Shown here one piece after another: positions 5,701 through 33,765 of a stretch of DNA of 64,000 nt. The notes under the pieces are model-generated. The model was not told where the DNA came from. It made no database searches and was given only the letters and a program-made list of their open reading frames with translations. This stretch comes from Sulfurovum sp. XGS-02 (lineage in GTDB: Bacteria > Campylobacterota > Campylobacteria > Campylobacterales > Sulfurovaceae): the NCBI RefSeq assembly GCF_023213175.1, contig NZ_CP093312.1, positions 1,798,001 through 1,862,000 of the forward strand, written 5' to 3'. The position numbers and the translations under genes were made by a program. Each line of letters begins with the position of its first letter. The stretch's first letter is position 1.

Positions 5701-6852
5701 ATGCTGAAAAAATATAAAATTGCCATTCTCGGCGGTTATGGATTAGGAAATTTTGGCGATGATGCATTAATGTATATTTTATATAAGAAGATTTCATCTA
5801 TCTATAAATCAGAAGATATCGCTTTTATTTGTACTCCAGAAAAATATTTATCAAGCATTGTTGATGACAGTGACATTATAGGCTTTAACAAAATAAATAC
5901 TATACAAACGGATTTGCTACTTTATGGAGGGGGCACTCAGTTTTATTCATTTAAACCTAAAAAAAATATACTGGCTAAAATATTATATTACATAAAACAT
6001 CCAAAAGATTTTTCATATAGACTATTTTCTAAACTAGCGGCCATGAACATTTATAATCAGAAAAATATTCAGAATCGAATTGCCGCTATAGGAATAGGAG
6101 TCGGACCTTTTTTAGAAGATGCCGATCAATCAATAGAGCAGAATACAAAAAAACTCTTTCTAAAAATGGATTTTGTTGGTGTTCGAGATACTTATAGTTA
6201 TGAAAAGTGTAAGGACTGGGGTGTTAAAGATGCAAAGCTTTATTCAGACTTATGTTTTTTAATGGATGATGAGTATGCCATAGAGAATAAAAGATCTGTA
6301 AACACACTTAAAAAAATTGGAATTATAGTGCGAGATTGGGATCAGACAGATGAAGGTGCAGCTTATTATGAAAAAATCATTCCGCTTTGTTCAGAATTAA
6401 CTTTAAAAGGATATGAAGTAAATATCATTATCTTTTCACTTAAACGGGATCTGTACTGGTGCAACAAACTTAAAACAAATACCAATGTATTATTTTGGAA
6501 TCCGAATGAAGATAATATAGACACTTTCCTCAAATTATTAGATAATTTTGATCTTTTTATTACTGCAAGATATCATGGTGCTATTTTTGCTTCTTTACTT
6601 GAGAAACCATTTATAGCAATAGGAGTTGAACAAAAACTGGAGTTAATTTCCGATCTCTATCAGAATGGATCTGAAAAATGGCTTTATCCTTTTGATCTTC
6701 ATCAATGCCTGTCTTACGTACAGGATATTGAAAAAAACTATAGTTCCTATCAAACAGGTATTCGTGATGAAACTATCATTCAAAAAAAATTAGCACGACA
6801 AATGTTAAAAGACTTTAAAGATCATTTTAATTTATTGAAGGAAACAAAATGA
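5701..6852 (+). CDS. Polysaccharide pyruvyl transferase family protein
   Basis: A 383-residue protein of the CsaB/WcaK-like superfamily. The N-terminal GGYGLGNFGDDAL (residues 11-23), the central LLLYGGGTQFY (73-82 region) and the C-terminal ARYHGAIFASLLEKPFIAIG are the family landmarks. Members transfer pyruvate as a ketal to glycans, using phosphoenolpyruvate, although some homologues do other glycan chemistry. A clean AAGGAG ribosome site precedes the ATG. The stop overlaps the next glycosyltransferase start by 4 nt (ATGA). Function in modifying the repeat unit is inferred from the cluster. Confidence 0.82.
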   Translation: MLKKYKIAILGGYGLGNFGDDALMYILYKKISSIYKSEDIAFICTPEKYLSSIVDDSDIIGFNKINTIQTDLLLYGGGTQFYSFKPKKNILAKILYYIKHPKDFSYRLFSKLAAMNIYNQKNIQNRIAAIGIGVGPFLEDADQSIEQNTKKLFLKMDFVGVRDTYSYEKCKDWGVKDAKLYSDLCFLMDDEYAIENKRSVNTLKKIGIIVRDWDQTDEGAAYYEKIIPLCSELTLKGYEVNIIIFSLKRDLYWCNKLKTNTNVLFWNPNEDNIDTFLKLLDNFDLFITARYHGAIFASLLEKPFIAIGVEQKLELISDLYQNGSEKWLYPFDLHQCLSYVQDIEKNYSSYQTGIRDETIIQKKLARQMLKDFKDHFNLLKETK

Positions 6853-22668: not shown

Positions 22669-23485
22669 ATATTATGAACTCACCATCACGCTTAATGATG
22701 ATTTTGTAGATTTTATCGCAGACTTCATTGCCAATATTTATGGTGAAGGATTGGAACTTGGTAAAGGGAAGATCATCCTACGTAGTGAGTCTGATTTAAC
22801 TTTCGTTAAAGATGCGCTTGTATCATTGTCCGGAACTTTAAATGATACCATCACAATGGACTATACACTCGAAGAGAAAGAAAATGTAAACTGGATCAAG
22901 ACCTATCAAGACTCTATCCAACCTATAGAAGCCGGTAAATTTTACATCTTTCCAAGCTGGTATGAGCCCAAAGAAGAGTGTATCAATATCAAAATAGACC
23001 CAGCACTTGCTTTTGGTTCGGGACACCATGCCACAACATTTTCATGTTTAGAGGCTATCAGTACTTATGTCGATGCAGGAAAATCTGTTATCGATGTCGG
23101 TTGCGGTTCTGGTATTTTGGGTCTTGCGTGTAAGAAACTGGGAGCAAATGTAGAACTTTGTGATACGGACCCTCTCTCTGTTGAAAGTTGTCAAGAGAAC
23201 TTTGCGTTAAACGAAGAAACCTATGACAAGCTCTGGGAAGGCTCCATAGACAAAGCAGAAGGTACCTATGATGTGGTCATCGCAAATATCATAGCAGATG
23301 TACTCAGATTTATCGCCAAAGATTTAAAATCTGCCTGTAAAGAGGATGGTACCTTGATACTTTCAGGTATTTTGGATAAAAAAGAAGATCTGGTCGTAGA
23401 ATCATTTAAAGAACTTACACTGGTAAAAAGAATACTTAAAGATGAGTGGGTCACACTCGTATATAAGAAGGAAATCAATGGCTAA
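22658..23485 (+). CDS. prmA: Ribosomal protein L11 methyltransferase
   Basis: About 275 residues from the ATG at 22658, which overlaps the hisA end by 11 nt; a start at 22628 would lie deep in hisA. N-terminal substrate-recognition domain ([13 protein letters not shown]), then the linker segment [22 protein letters not shown] and the class I SAM motif [20 protein letters not shown], and [10 protein letters not shown] as motif IV. It trimethylates the N-terminus and lysines of ribosomal protein L11. Its end overlaps ftsH by 8 nt. Confidence 0.93.
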
Positions 23486-29141: not shown

Positions 29142-29705
29142 TTACCGCCAGTAACGCGGATAGTGTCGATTTGGGTTGTTTGACATGTTATTGACTGCAA
29201 GTGCGATGATCAATAAAATGAAAGTACCTGTTGCAATCGGTGTCAATACGAACCTATAGCCTAATTCATGGATTTGGGAACTTCCGATAACAGCAATTAA
29301 GGCTGTTGCACCTCCAGGGGGATGTAGAGTGCGTGTAATGTGCATTGCTACAATAGATAAAGAGACAGCCAAGGCACTGAGAAGTGAAAGTTCCAATGGC
29401 AAATATTTATATACCGTGATACCTATAAGTGCCGAAATGATATGCCCTCCAATTAAATTGCGAGGCTGGGACAACTCTGCATTAGGCACCCCGTATAGTA
29501 ACACTGCAGAAGCGCCGAACGAACCAACCAGAAAAAGTGTGTCTGCCGTGTTCACAAAAAGATATTGATTAAGCACCGATATGAGGTAAATTCCAAGGAA
29601 AGCTCCTATGCCTGACCAGATAATATGAGGTATGTGTGCTCGGGATGGTGAAGCTTCCAACCCCCGCATTCGATTGAAATAGCCATATACATGTCGACGC
29701 ATCAC
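29142..29705 (-). CDS. HPP family membrane protein
   Basis: A 187-residue protein with about five membrane segments. The motif RTLHPPGGATALIAVIG (residues ~127-143) names the HPP family, whose members include a chloroplast nitrite transporter and many uncharacterised bacterial proteins. VGSFGASAVLLYGVPNAELSQPRNLIGGHI is the second conserved stretch. AAGGAG precedes the start. It lies behind the globin gene, separated by a strong hairpin. Nitrite transport would suit the NO-related neighbours, but this is inference from family and location. Confidence 0.85.
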   Translation of the reverse strand: MMRRHVYGYFNRMRGLEASPSRAHIPHIIWSGIGAFLGIYLISVLNQYLFVNTADTLFLVGSFGASAVLLYGVPNAELSQPRNLIGGHIISALIGITVYKYLPLELSLLSALAVSLSIVAMHITRTLHPPGGATALIAVIGSSQIHELGYRFVLTPIATGTFILLIIALAVNNMSNNPNRHYPRYWR

Positions 29706-29737
29706 TATCTCCTTTGAAGGGGGTATTGTTTACGATA

Positions 29738-29765
29738 CAAGCTAATAGAATTTTCTATTGGCTTG
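29738..29765 (-). terminator. 13-bp hairpin between globin and HPP genes
   Basis: CAAGCTAATAGAA and TTCTATTGGCTTG form a 13-bp stem (one G-U wobble) with a 2-nt spacer, which as RNA would open to a larger loop. It starts 11 nt beyond the globin stop in the direction of transcription. A U-run is lacking, so it could be a pausing or processing hairpin rather than a strong terminator. Confidence 0.55.
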
Positions 29766-29775
29766 AATGTTTTAT

Positions 29776-30201
29776 TTATGATGCGTATAGCTCTTTTTCT
29801 CTGGCGATCAAAATATCAGCCAGGAAAAAATAGGCTTCTTTCCAAGCATCAAGGATCTCATCTGTGGCAGCATCTCCCAAGACCTCTTTAATAGCACCAA
29901 GAATGGCACTACCCACCATTGGATAGTGTTCAGGTCTGACATGGGTACGTACATGGCTTTGTGCCATCTTCTCGACCGCTTTAGACAGAACCTCCAGATT
30001 ATCGATATTTGCAGCATAGGCACCCACTGCCGAAGCAAGTTTTTTATGCTGATCCGGATCCGCATCTTTAAATAACTCTTTGAGTTCTGGATTCTGGTTA
30101 AAAAGGATCTCATACATTTTTGTTGTAATAGCCTCGGCATTTTGAGAAACTGTACCAGCTGTAGCTTTGACCGTATTGATCGTTGATTGTGAAAGGGACA
30201 T
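29776..30201 (-). CDS. Single-domain bacterial haemoglobin (Vgb/Cgb type)
   Basis: A 141-residue globin, full length for the class. Proximal His F8 is H83 in AQSHVRTHVRPEHYPMVG; Tyr30 (B10) in KMYEILFNQNPELKELF and Gln51 (E7) are as in Vitreoscilla haemoglobin, and the stretch GAIKEVLGDAATDEILDAW is almost the same as in that protein. These globins bind O2 and detoxify nitric oxide as dioxygenases with a partner reductase, which is not encoded next to it. A perfect TTGAT-N4-ATCAA operator lies 59 bases upstream, and a Crp/Fnr regulator is three genes away, resembling the Campylobacter NssR-Cgb system in logic. Confidence 0.94.
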   Translation of the reverse strand: MSLSQSTINTVKATAGTVSQNAEAITTKMYEILFNQNPELKELFKDADPDQHKKLASAVGAYAANIDNLEVLSKAVEKMAQSHVRTHVRPEHYPMVGSAILGAIKEVLGDAATDEILDAWKEAYFFLADILIAREKELYAS

Positions 30202-30259
30202 TTAAACTCCTGTTTTTTATAAAGTCTTCGAAGTATATCCCAAAACATGATTTACGAAA

Positions 30260-30273
30260 TTGATTTATATCAA
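30260..30273. promoter_or_regulatory. FNR/DNR-type operator upstream of the globin gene
   Basis: TTGATTTATATCAA is a perfect 14-bp palindrome of the TTGAT-N4-ATCAA class. It is 59 nt upstream of the globin ATG on the minus strand, at a distance compatible with class II activation. The other two copies in this neighbourhood are at 31930-31943 and 32777-32790. Confidence 0.82.
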
Positions 30274-30386
30274 GTTTGGATATGTAAGCATTTAATCGAG
30301 TAGACATGTCAAAATTTCAGTCTATATACGTTATTTCATTCAAATCATCTAAAAATCACCCTAGCAAAAAACTAACTCACGCGTAT

Positions 30387-31001
30387 CTAATAGACTTGAA
30401 TCATTTTATCTCTTAACATTTTGGTAAGTAAAATCTCTTTGACTCTCTCTTGCCATAACGCTTTGAAAATATTTCTCTCTTGCTCAGATGCCTTTCCCTG
30501 CAATATTTTTCCCATCAAAGGTTTTAATCTTTGATCTCCAGGGATCACCGAAGGGTCATAGCTGAGTGAAACGGAGAGATTAGTATCAATTCTTCCCAAC
30601 GTTACATCTCCCGCCATTGGCTGATCATAAGCAATCAAATTGTTCCTTGAAAAATTCCCCTGTATCCCCTTAAATCCTTCTTCTCCATTCGCCCCAACAA
30701 TAAATGAGATAATGTTTCCCGTTACACCTACTGTCCCTTCGCTTCTTTTTCCCTTCATACTGATAGTGATGTCCCCACGCTGCGGCAGTTTGGAACCATA
30801 GAGCATTTTTAATCCTATCACTGTCATAAGATAAGCGCCTGCAACAGTGGGACAGGAGTGGCCTGCTTGCTTGACACAATCTAAATAACTGATCTCAACT
30901 TTACCCTCTTCACATGCACCTAGAAAATCACTGAGCGGATCATAAAGTAATATTGAGTCAACTTCATCAAAAAACAAGGGATATCGCATTTTCCTCACCA
31001 T
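30387..31001 (-). CDS. FmdE-like domain protein, function unknown
   Basis: A 204-residue soluble protein with a GHSCPTVAGAYL segment (residues 47-58) preceded by Cys42; Cys42, His48 and Cys50 make a plausible metal site. The arrangement resembles the FmdE family (named after formylmethanofuran dehydrogenase operons), which is often seen in organisms without methanogenesis and has no settled role. The rest (GNIISFIVGANGEEGF, YDPSVIPGDQRLKPLMGKILQG) is not recognised. The start may be ATG 31001 or ATG 30989. It lies between the cytochrome c and the globin, 72 nt after the former, so it may be under the same operator. Confidence 0.6.
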   Translation of the reverse strand: MVRKMRYPLFFDEVDSILLYDPLSDFLGACEEGKVEISYLDCVKQAGHSCPTVAGAYLMTVIGLKMLYGSKLPQRGDITISMKGKRSEGTVGVTGNIISFIVGANGEEGFKGIQGNFSRNNLIAYDQPMAGDVTLGRIDTNLSVSLSYDPSVIPGDQRLKPLMGKILQGKASEQERNIFKALWQERVKEILLTKMLRDKMIQVY

Positions 31002-31073
31002 CCTATTTCATCCATACTATCGGATCCTTATCTGGAACCAGCCTACAGATACTAAAATCAAGGGTTAAAATAA

Positions 31074-31865
31074 CTATTTATATTCCCAGAAAGGAAGTAA
31101 ATACTCTATCTGCTCATCATCGAGTATCTCCAGTGTCTGAGAGATACATTGAATATGCACTTTTGTTACAGATGCTTTCAGTTTCGCTATTTCATCTATT
31201 TTACTCTCCAGGTTTTTTGGGGATTCATCATCCATGAACAGAGCTTCCATCATTTCCGTCTCTAAAGTATCAATCTTTCGTTTTGCTTTTTGAACCTCTC
31301 CTATCGTATGATCTCGAATCACAAGAAGTTTCTTTTTCTGCTCGTCACTCAGTCCCAAAGCCTGTTTATCCCAATGTTTGATCAGCAGCTTTGTCATATG
31401 GGGCAACGCTTCCTTATTGATCAGAAATGGAGAGTTCTGTAGTGCATTCATTTTGTCATTTCTTTGAATTTCATCGATCATATCTACAAATTCTTCGGAA
31501 GGGTAGTGCTCGATCAGGTAATCCGCGATCTTAGAGAGCTCCTCTTGGGTAATACTCCCTTTAAGCGAAGGCATCACACCGTACTGTTGTACTTTATTTG
31601 ACTCACAGACTGATTTTTTTGCCGCAGGGTTTATCACATAATCAGTAATAAAATCTTTCATTGCTTGCTTATCAGCCATCACCAACTTCGTATGATACAT
31701 CACAGCTCCCATAGGTGGTGCTTTTAAGGTAGGTATCATATCAGGTGTCGGTTTTTCAAGCATATGGCATGTAGCACATTTCGTCTTTACTAGATCAACG
31801 TCACCTGCATATAATGTACTAACCCCAATAATAGCTGTGGCTACGATAACATTTATTTTTAACAT
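31074..31865 (-). CDS. Exported cytochrome c fused to a Spy/CpxP-like helical domain
   Basis: 263 residues. A signal peptide (about residues 1-20, ending LYAGD) directs export. A single haem site C30-A-T-C33-H34 lies at the mature N-terminus, with Met-containing APPMGAVMYHTKL as possible distal ligand region, and residues ~95-125 (MPSLKGSITQEELSKIADYLIEHYPS) close a class I cytochrome fold. Residues ~155-263 are charged helices with LSDEQKKKLLVIRD and CISQTLEILDDEQIEYL, an LTxxQ-like pattern as in Spy/CpxP/ZraP periplasmic metal or stress sensors. A perfect TTGAT-N4-ATCAA box lies 65 nt upstream. A role as periplasmic redox or NO/metal stress protein is inferred. Confidence 0.82.
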   Translation of the reverse strand: MLKINVIVATAIIGVSTLYAGDVDLVKTKCATCHMLEKPTPDMIPTLKAPPMGAVMYHTKLVMADKQAMKDFITDYVINPAAKKSVCESNKVQQYGVMPSLKGSITQEELSKIADYLIEHYPSEEFVDMIDEIQRNDKMNALQNSPFLINKEALPHMTKLLIKHWDKQALGLSDEQKKKLLVIRDHTIGEVQKAKRKIDTLETEMMEALFMDDESPKNLESKIDEIAKLKASVTKVHIQCISQTLEILDDEQIEYLLPFWEYK

Positions 31866-31929
31866 ATTTTATCCTTCAGACTTTTCATAATTTTTTAGTG
31901 CATCTTAAATAAAAAATATGAAAAGTGTA

Positions 31930-31943
31930 TTGATATTTATCAA
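31930..31943. promoter_or_regulatory. FNR/DNR-type operator upstream of the cytochrome c gene
   Basis: TTGATATTTATCAA, a perfect TTGAT-N4-ATCAA palindrome, in the 88-nt gap between the Crp/Fnr regulator stop and the cytochrome start. It is 65 nt upstream of the cytochrome ATG on the minus strand. Confidence 0.82.
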
Positions 31944-31953
31944 GATTCACAGC

Positions 31954-32580
31954 TTAAGGTACTTTATAACCCGTTGAAACCTGTATCAGTTTTTCCTCCT
32001 TCAGTAATTTGGAGATATTACGAGAGAGTGTTTCCGGTGTCATACTGAGTATAGAGGCTATCTCATACTGTTTGAGATCTAATGCCAACTTAGGGTTTTT
32101 CTGATAAAAATTTAATACTTTCTCTTTGGAGGTTGCCGCAAGGTTAAAATGTATATTTTGTTGGAGGAGATCGATCTTTGCAAGCAGTGACTGAATAATT
32201 TCATACGCAAGTCTGGAATGACTGAGAAGAAAACTTTCAAAACCATCGAGTGAAATTTTAAGAATAGAACCGTCTGTTTGAAATCTTGCAGATGAAGGTA
32301 ACGGAGTCTTTCTTAAAGTAGCCGCCTCAGCAAGCAGTGCATACCGGTTAAAGTATCCGATCACAACTTCATTTCCTTTACTGTCATGTTTATAGATACT
32401 CACGACCCCATCGATCAATATCATGACATTTTCACTCATCTCACCTTGTGTAAAAACGATCGAATCTTTATGATAATGAGATATCTGCGTCACGGTTGCG
32501 AGTTCACTGAGCTCTTTTTCACTTAATGAAGAGAAGAGAGTGATCTGCTTCAGTATCTCCGTAATATTCGATTTTTCCAT
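31954..32580 (-). CDS. Crp/Fnr family transcription regulator, cysteine-free (DNR/NssR-like)
   Basis: A 208-residue protein: N-terminal cyclic-nucleotide-like beta-roll (residues ~8-120, with IVFTQGEMSENVMILIDGVVSIY), dimerisation helix (~121-145) and C-terminal winged helix. The recognition helix reads PETLSRNISKLLKEE, i.e. E-x2-S-R, the FNR-type residues that read TTGAT. There are no Cys residues, so no FNR-type iron-sulfur cluster is possible; NO sensing through haem, as in DNR, is a plausible alternative. Three matching operators lie within 2.6 kb, ahead of a globin, a cytochrome c and a hemerythrin. I infer an NO- or redox-responsive local regulator. Confidence 0.88.
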   Translation of the reverse strand: MEKSNITEILKQITLFSSLSEKELSELATVTQISHYHKDSIVFTQGEMSENVMILIDGVVSIYKHDSKGNEVVIGYFNRYALLAEAATLRKTPLPSSARFQTDGSILKISLDGFESFLLSHSRLAYEIIQSLLAKIDLLQQNIHFNLAATSKEKVLNFYQKNPKLALDLKQYEIASILSMTPETLSRNISKLLKEEKLIQVSTGYKVP

Positions 32581-32776
32581 AATGCACCTTACTTTTATTT
32601 ATCTTATACTGAGGCACTCTACACTTCTATGTTTGATAATAAGGCTTCGAGATCGTTCAGGTTTTTGTATTAATACTATAGAAAGTGAATTATATCACAA
32701 CTCTCAAGTCCTCTCCACGCCTCCTTCAAAGAGATCACTCACTGCGACAGGTAGATAGAAGACTTATAGAGGCCTA

Positions 32777-32790
32777 TTGATTTTTATCAA
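32777..32790. promoter_or_regulatory. FNR/DNR-type operator upstream of the first hemerythrin
   Basis: TTGATTTTTATCAA, a perfect TTGAT-N4-ATCAA palindrome 48 nt before the hemerythrin ATG. A TATACT hexamer follows at 32808-32813, which places the operator centre roughly 37-41 nt upstream of the expected start of transcription, a class II activator position. The regulator gene starts about 200 nt away in the other direction. Confidence 0.85.
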
Positions 32791-32838
32791 TATACTTTTA
32801 ACACTTCTATACTACAATGAACGAAAAAGGAGCCTAGC

Positions 32839-33273
32839 ATGGGATTGATTTATGCAGAACAGGTAGAGTATATGAGTGTCGATGAGATGCAGAAGACACA
32901 TGAGGATGAAATTAAAATTATCAATGAGATCGAGAAGCTTACTGTAGGATATGAAAGAGGTACAACAGAACAAGCTGAGCTGGAACATAAACTGGACGAA
33001 TATATCGCACATGTGAAAGCACACTTTGCGAATGAAGAGCGTTTAATGCAAGAGTATGACTTTCCATCTTACGAGATGCATAAATTGGCACATGATATGT
33101 TTTTAATGGATCTTCAGTATGCAACAAGACAATGGAAAGAGTTTGGGGATATCAAGAAGATCATCAACTTTGTAGCCAAGACACCTGAGTGGATTATCAT
33201 GCATGTAAAGTCGGTAGATGCCCCCACAGCAGATTATCTTGCGAGAAAAATGGAACAACAGAACGAAGCGTAA
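32839..33273 (+). CDS. Bacteriohemerythrin (1)
   Basis: A 144-residue four-helix-bundle protein with a complete di-iron ligand set at canonical spacing: H21, H62-x3-E66, H81-x3-H85 and H122-x4-D127. Hemerythrins bind O2 (and NO) reversibly; in microaerophiles they store or deliver O2 or protect iron-sulfur enzymes. AAAAGGAG precedes the ATG. There is no membrane or sensor domain. It is preceded by the FNR-type operator and followed 90 nt later by a second hemerythrin. Confidence 0.95.
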   Translation: MGLIYAEQVEYMSVDEMQKTHEDEIKIINEIEKLTVGYERGTTEQAELEHKLDEYIAHVKAHFANEERLMQEYDFPSYEMHKLAHDMFLMDLQYATRQWKEFGDIKKIINFVAKTPEWIIMHVKSVDAPTADYLARKMEQQNEA

Positions 33274-33363
33274 GAGAGGGATTCCCCTCGGTCTTCTTAA
33301 AAGTGAAATATATGGAAAACCTTGAAATAGAAAAGCGAAATGAGAACAACATAAGGATAAATC

Positions 33364-33765
33364 ATGCTGATAGACGTTAAAGATATACAACAAGTTTCCA
33401 ATGATATGATGAATATATTACACGAAGAGGAGATCAGGATCATTAATGATTTTCATGATGCTGTCCTGACAAAAGATAAGGAGAAGATAGATGAACTCTT
33501 TAAGGTCGTCCAGTTTGATGTAGAAGATCATTTTTCTACAGAAGAAGCAATGATGGAAGAGAGTAAGTTCTATGCTATGCAAATGCATAAAAGTGAACAT
33601 GACACGATGAGAAAAAAGCTCGATCAACTCCAAAAAAGCTGGGAAAGCCATAGGGACCCTGAAGAGATACAAAAGTTCCTGGAAGATGAATTCAAACATT
33701 GGCTGGTACTACATGTTGCAAGATGGGATTCCGAAACTGCAATGCATCTTGGAGATTCGATGTAA
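33364..33765 (+). CDS. Bacteriohemerythrin (2)
   Basis: A 133-residue hemerythrin with ligands H20, H56-x3-E60, H75-x3-H79 and H117-x4-D122, again complete. Outside the ligand motifs it is quite diverged from its neighbour (different N-terminus and helix 3), so this is an old duplication or separate recruitment. AAGGA precedes the ATG. It has no operator of its own in the 90-nt gap, so co-transcription with the first hemerythrin is likely. Confidence 0.94.
   Translation: MLIDVKDIQQVSNDMMNILHEEEIRIINDFHDAVLTKDKEKIDELFKVVQFDVEDHFSTEEAMMEESKFYAMQMHKSEHDTMRKKLDQLQKSWESHRDPEEIQKFLEDEFKHWLVLHVARWDSETAMHLGDSM

Follow-up and report, generated by a model that had tools for sequence, protein, structure and literature searches.

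Sulfurovum sp. XGS-02 carries, in the 64,000-nucleotide stretch analysed here (the window; contig NZ_CP093312.1, positions 1,798,001 to 1,862,000), a group of genes around a Crp/Fnr-family regulator that we call REG. Beside it are encoded a single-domain globin and an HPP-family membrane protein, an exported cytochrome c fused to a helical hairpin, an FmdE-like protein and two hemerythrins (Table 1). The first-pass annotation of this DNA had proposed a local regulon of heme and non-heme diiron O2/NO-binding proteins under an FNR-type box distinct from the published NssR box, and on these points it stands. A pattern search of the window recovered all three perfect TTGAT-N4-ATCAA boxes just where that annotation had put them, before the globin, cytochrome fusion and hemerythrin 1 genes; each is intergenic and lies 48-64 nt 5′ of the start codon. 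Judged by its sequence, the REG regulon is real, conserved and of the DNR/Nss-like class II type, ordinary in kind and new in its members.

Table 1. Genes, operators and predicted promoter elements of the REG locus (positions in the window)
Feature	Position	Strand	Details
HPP-family membrane protein, 187 aa	29142..29705	-	Pfam TM_HPP E=2e-57
Single-domain globin, 141 aa	29776..30201	-	Pfam Globin E=9.7e-16
Predicted -10 hexamer TATACT, globin promoter	30232..30237	-	32 bp from box centre
Operator TTGATTTATATCAA	30260..30273		58 nt upstream of globin start codon
FmdE-like gene, 204 aa	30387..31001	-	Pfam FmdE E=3.3e-4, under curated cut-off
Exported monoheme cytochrome c fused to CnrX/Spy-like helical hairpin, 263 aa	31074..31865	-	Invariant CxxCH, residues 30-34
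Predicted -10 hexamer TAAGAT (4/6), cytochrome promoter	31902..31907	-	32 bp from box centre
Operator TTGATATTTATCAA	31930..31943		64 nt upstream of cytochrome fusion start codon
Crp/Fnr-family regulator REG, 208 aa	31954..32580	-	Pfam cNMP_binding E=4e-16, HTH_Crp_2 E=8e-7
Operator TTGATTTTTATCAA	32777..32790		48 nt from hemerythrin 1 start codon and 196 nt from REG, upstream of both
Predicted -10 hexamer TACAAT, hemerythrin 1 promoter	32813..32818	+	32 bp from box centre
Hemerythrin 1, 144 aa	32839..33273	+	TIGR02481 E=4e-17
Hemerythrin 2, 133 aa, second gene of hemerythrin unit	33364..33765	+	TIGR02481 E=9.5e-16

By every comparative test that we ran, the three boxes at the locus are functional. 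At all three promoters the centres of the box and of the -10 hexamer are exactly 32 bp apart. Class II FNR-dependent promoters, whose box is centred at -41.5, likewise have 32 bp between these two centres. We listed 42 sites in this genome and its relatives and dropped one (L121@513) as a stray unrelated to globin. A -10 match of at least 5/6 at exactly 32 bp was found at 34 of the remaining 41 promoters, against a background of 1.2% at sampled upstream positions; the promoters are kin by descent, so 34/41 is not a strict probability. With transcription starts predicted, this spacing is that of class II FNR-dependent promoters.

The link between the regulator, the box and the globin is conserved in relatives. 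Orthologues of REG (at least 55% identity) occur in 25 of the 175 family genomes searched, globins in 26 and both in 20. TTGAY-N4-RTCAA precedes the globin in 18/18 readable REG-positive Sulfurovaceae genomes other than that of the window, a count that leaves out one truncated contig, and lies 47-64 nt upstream when second globin copies are set aside. Those second copies, in G000, G090, G137 and G138, have no box. In four close relatives (G137, G138, G090 and G091) the globin box is perfect and 56-58 nt upstream. Named orthologues of REG come from Sulfurovum, Sulfurimonas, an Arcobacter metagenome-assembled genome and unclassified Campylobacterales, and mostly adjoin a globin gene; distant ones in Sulfurovum, Sulfurimonas and Arcobacter keep the box before that neighbour.

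The same four relatives also bear on the other two promoters. REG is their only Crp/Fnr transcription factor, as the other PF00027 match falls in a frame of ∼611-622 residues. All four keep the gene order and the boxes with at most one change per box, except that in G090 a hemerythrin gene has been inserted and the flank differs. The cytochrome-fusion box is perfect in G091 and has one change in G137 and G138; in G090 the box of the cytochrome locus (one change) stands before the inserted hemerythrin gene. The hemerythrin 1 box is found at 48 nt in all four, with one change in G137. In G090 the homologue of hemerythrin 2 has moved elsewhere, and it and a further homologue of hemerythrin 1 each have a box of their own with TATAAT at 32 bp. 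These account for two of the perfect boxes outside the cluster of that genome, and nearly all the others that were read lie within genes. Taken together, G090 and the sole-regulator relatives are the best comparative evidence that REG reads the box and that the hemerythrins are true members. Divergent from the boxed hemerythrin 1 paralogue of G090 is a gene for a truncated (bacterial-like) globin (L219, 1456-1863).

The distribution of the boxes suggests how the regulon was assembled. At locus L196, which the tree places beside the species group of the window, REG lies between homologues of hemerythrin 2 and hemerythrin 1, with one box for each. The cytochrome-fusion box is confined to the cluster of the window's species group, and homologues of the fusion elsewhere, with or without REG, have none. 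By this comparison, the core of the regulon is REG, the box and the globin; the hemerythrins joined in one subclade, and the cytochrome fusion only in the window's species group. The locus illustrates the growth of a small regulon from a fixed core, with hemerythrins gained in a subclade and the cytochrome fusion in a single species group. It also places bacterial hemerythrins under one switch with single-domain globins, in relatives of bacteria of O2/sulfide interfaces, and makes the REG clade a set of conserved regulators with a precise promoter code in Sulfurovum and related Campylobacterota.

REG itself belongs to the Crp/Fnr superfamily, with PF00027 and PF13545 both above cut-off. As first annotated, it has no cysteine, and no cysteine is conserved in 32 orthologues. 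FNR/ANR O2 sensors hold a [4Fe-4S] cluster via cysteine ligands; with no cysteine in REG, iron-sulfur sensing of this type is ruled out. The E-x2-SR recognition helix noted at first pass is present as TPETLSR, and the same motif or a close variant that keeps E, S and R is found in 32/32 orthologues. This is the E-x2-S-R helix of DNR/Nss-type NO regulators, and the locus boxes are of the DNR/Nss form (TTGAT-N4-ATCAA or TTGA-N6-TCAA). The 32 orthologues make up one side of a tree branch with support 100/99. Among them His144 is invariant and His65 nearly so; a role of either in heme binding is speculation. Of the cAMP-contact residues of the CRP sensor domain, the position of Arg82 reads Ser in REG (PSSARF; judged by eye). 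Near some REG orthologues lie genes for protoglobin-PsiE membrane-domain fusions (L060, 10447-11391; L201, 3491-4393), and similar 301-residue genes, by their N-terminal sequence, adjoin REG in L062 and L074.

Several known systems resemble this locus in part. DNR of Pseudomonas and beta-proteobacteria reads the box TTGATnnnnATCAA, and in Acidithiobacillus a cgb-type globin operon is predicted to be under a DNR paralogue (PMC1274295). DNR and REG are both Crp/Fnr regulators with the same box. However, REG is only weakly similar to P. aeruginosa DNR (3dkw, E=5.8e-8; the best PDB matches are 3h3z/3fx3), hemerythrins and a cytochrome c fusion are among its predicted targets at the locus, and no nir, nor or nos target was found among the boxes of the window's genome. 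NssR of Campylobacter jejuni, with the box TTAACnnnnGTTAA and the determinants A180/Q181 (PMC1274295), shares the phylum, the regulator family and a single-domain globin as core target. It differs in that the REG locus has TTGAT-N4-ATCAA and E-x2-S-R in place of that box and those residues, and in that the literature covered reports neither a hemerythrin nor a cytochrome fusion in its regulon. An NssR-type box for the REG locus is ruled out: with up to one mismatch, TTAAC-N4-GTTAA matches the window only at 22796 and nowhere near the REG-locus genes. That solitary site (22796-22809) is a perfect NssR-type box, TTAACTTTCGTTAA.

The Nss proteins of Wolinella succinogenes answer nitrate, NO and N2O (PMC6682613) and have TTGA-N6-TCAA sites (PMC11539149). 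By description, NssA, NssB and NssC resemble REG in phylum and site, and NssA and NssB are stated to have a Dnr-type DNA-binding domain; their targets are nitrate, nitrite and N2O reductases, whereas those predicted for REG are gas-binding proteins. In Pseudomonas aeruginosa, Anr controls an O2-binding hemerythrin, mhr (PMC12403760). This too is FNR-family control of such a protein, but Anr is an O2-responsive regulator of the FNR type and REG has no cysteines. A text search of the literature, with most subscription papers outside its coverage, returned no Sulfurovum report on a Crp regulator with hemoglobin.

We propose that REG, as a DNR/Nss-like Crp/Fnr activator, would bind TTGAT-N4-ATCAA centred at about -41.5 at the three promoters and recruit RNA polymerase in a class II manner. 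It would thereby switch on three units: globin-HPP, cytochrome c/CnrX-like fusion-FmdE and hemerythrin 1-hemerythrin 2. NO would be the most likely signal, with low O2 as the alternative; as REG is without cysteine, sensing would probably use heme or some other route that needs no iron-sulfur cluster. The globin would bind and detoxify NO, and the hemerythrins would buffer O2 or protect iron enzymes. We consider this mechanism likely as a whole, class II activation of three units with NO as the foremost signal. A broader and rather doubtful reading is that Campylobacterota have here a denitrification-independent gas-buffering regulon. In it, a cysteine-free Crp/Fnr clade would have a new route for sensing NO or O2, such as heme at His144 of the presumed dimer helix. 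The clade would bring gas-binding proteins of the heme and diiron kinds under joint control with an exported, sensor-like cytochrome c protein.

One alternative concerns the signal. REG might answer low O2 or redox state rather than NO, in the way that Anr governs a hemerythrin in Pseudomonas (PMC12403760), and the presence of hemerythrins in the gene set agrees with this. So does the respiratory equipment. The genome has the subunit I of an aa3-like and of a cbb3-type terminal oxidase and no NorB-like third COX1 protein, and none of its four molybdopterin oxidoreductases reaches the NapA cut-off (for the fourth, the frame that was scored is truncated). Respiratory denitrification is therefore not evident from the NorB-like and NapA-like proteins sought; nirS, nirK and nosZ were not searched for. 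Against an O2 or redox signal, a protein without cysteine would have no FNR/ANR-type iron-sulfur cluster, and the core partner of REG is a globin of flavohemoprotein type, the target of the Campylobacter NO-stress regulator (PMC1274295). We hold O2 or redox control to be somewhat improbable, while keeping it in view.

Other observations weigh against REG as an NO-responsive activator of its own. The boxes, their spacing, their conservation and the regulator family are read directly from the DNA; binding, activation, the signal and the functions of the effectors we infer. With no NorB-like COX1 and no NapA-like protein over cut-off, the genome shows no evident NO source of its own, and NO from neighbours, or O2, is possible as the signal. 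Six globins from genomes without a REG orthologue include four with no box and two, in G108 and G081, with a perfect one; boxes of this kind can therefore belong to other Crp/Fnr proteins. Finally, a second regulator of the same genome, REG2, shares the recognition motif of REG, and cross-control is possible in this strain.

REG2 bears on how local the regulon is. PF00027 has three matches in the genome: REG, REG2 (241093-241677) and a third in a frame of 631 residues, which is not the size of a Crp/Fnr protein. REG2 adjoins nrdD and nrdG, carries the same TPETLSR and lies on the opposite side of the 100/99 branch from REG. Its region (genome 236422-241677; L016, 6423-11771) comprises gap, nrdD, a PAC_bac-domain gene, nrdG and REG2, and has three perfect boxes. 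Those before gap and nrdD have TATAAT at 32 bp, and a more distant nrdD box is without it. This region is probably a second local switch. The earlier view of a regulon compact within 4.6 kb, with one switch for all boxes, is not supported: the same promoter type recurs at gap and nrdD, and REG2 has the same recognition motif.

Nor is the 4.6-kb stretch the sole site of perfect copies, as had been claimed. The window holds a fourth, within coding sequence (6692-6705), and pattern searches with fetched stretches gave 14 in the complete 2.19-Mb genome, the surroundings of all of which were read. Eight of the 14 fall within genes; of the six intergenic boxes, three are at the locus, and the one before gap and the two before nrdD lie outside it. 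The looser TTGAY-N4-RTCAA has 22 copies, and seven of the eight added sites were read, all within genes (the eighth, at 2160634, is outside the set read in context). The box scan of two genomes with few Crp/Fnr proteins gave 40 sites in G133 and 30 in G080, genic and intergenic together.

It is conceivable that the boxes are read mainly by REG2, or by REG and REG2 jointly, as a larger network with gap and nrdD. The identical TPETLSR and the perfect TATAAT at 32 bp from the gap and nrdD boxes would fit such a network. In addition, G135 and G173 have a NapA-like gene next to other Crp/Fnr genes that fall on the REG2 side in the tree, and several genomes carry intergenic boxes of this type near REG2-like genes. 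Yet the four closest relatives are without REG2 and keep the globin, cytochrome and hemerythrin boxes, no perfect box read in them sits at gap or nrdD, and the branch that splits REG from REG2 is well supported (100/99). We judge a REG2 or joint network quite unlikely. REG2 as sole owner of the boxes is disfavoured by the retention of boxes in relatives without it. The perfect copies read in these relatives include none at gap or nrdD, which suggests that the gap-nrdD boxes belong to REG2.

Simple enrichment also separates the boxes from background: six of 14 intergenic gives P of about 0.0015, assuming 10% non-coding DNA, and three of 14 inside 2.5 kb gives about 0.0016. Spacing and conservation are far stronger evidence than either value. 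Chance matching in AT-rich intergenic DNA is hardly credible as the origin of the boxes: perfect copies do arise in coding DNA (eight in this genome), but the gap to the -10 hexamer is a constant 32 bp, the same distance from the same genes is kept across relatives and paralogues are without a box, so for the globin and hemerythrin boxes a chance origin is ruled out by the comparative evidence.

The FmdE-like gene, which in the window's genome lies downstream of the cytochrome fusion, has a wider history. It is present in 162 of 299 genomes of the order, and some homologues exceed the Pfam cut-off; a sequence search of solved structures gave no match to the protein. Among 29 homologues fetched from other genomes, 22 have a box, in the form TTGAY-N4-RTCAA, at most 260 nt upstream, and 18 of these have a -10 match of at least 5/6 at 32 bp. 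Because this arrangement recurs elsewhere, the gene is, on promoter sequence, a member of this promoter class independently of REG. Many Campylobacterota have the same promoter code at an FmdE-like gene, often beside a NapA-like gene. Among loci L251-L279, the gene heads a row with hemerythrin-domain and DUF2249 genes in Sulfurovum relatives and, in other Campylobacterota, often stands opposite a NapA-like gene (identified by N-terminal sequence).

The remaining features concern individual genes. The globin matches the NCBIfam model of NO-inducible flavohemoprotein over its globin part only (E=7e-50). The genome has a second single-domain globin at 1072447-1072866 (L131), 54% identical to the first and without a box. 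HPP is a probable downstream partner of the globin gene, which it also adjoins in G137, G138, G090 and G091. The two are separated by a stem-loop of 12 pairs (29738-29765) that has no T-run on its transcribed side and might restrict read-through. The cytochrome fusion has sub-threshold Pfam matches to Cytochrome_CBB3 and Metal_resist and only weak sequence matches to solved structures. The two parts of its AlphaFold model (low confidence, pLDDT 69) resemble cytochrome c6/c551 and CnrX, with no significant E-values. A weak terminator-like hairpin (33276-33289) lies between hemerythrin 1 and hemerythrin 2, whose co-transcription is uncertain. Beyond the REG clade, another Crp/Fnr type recurs beside small hemerythrin-like and cupin-like genes (L083, L086, L088 and L210-L212).

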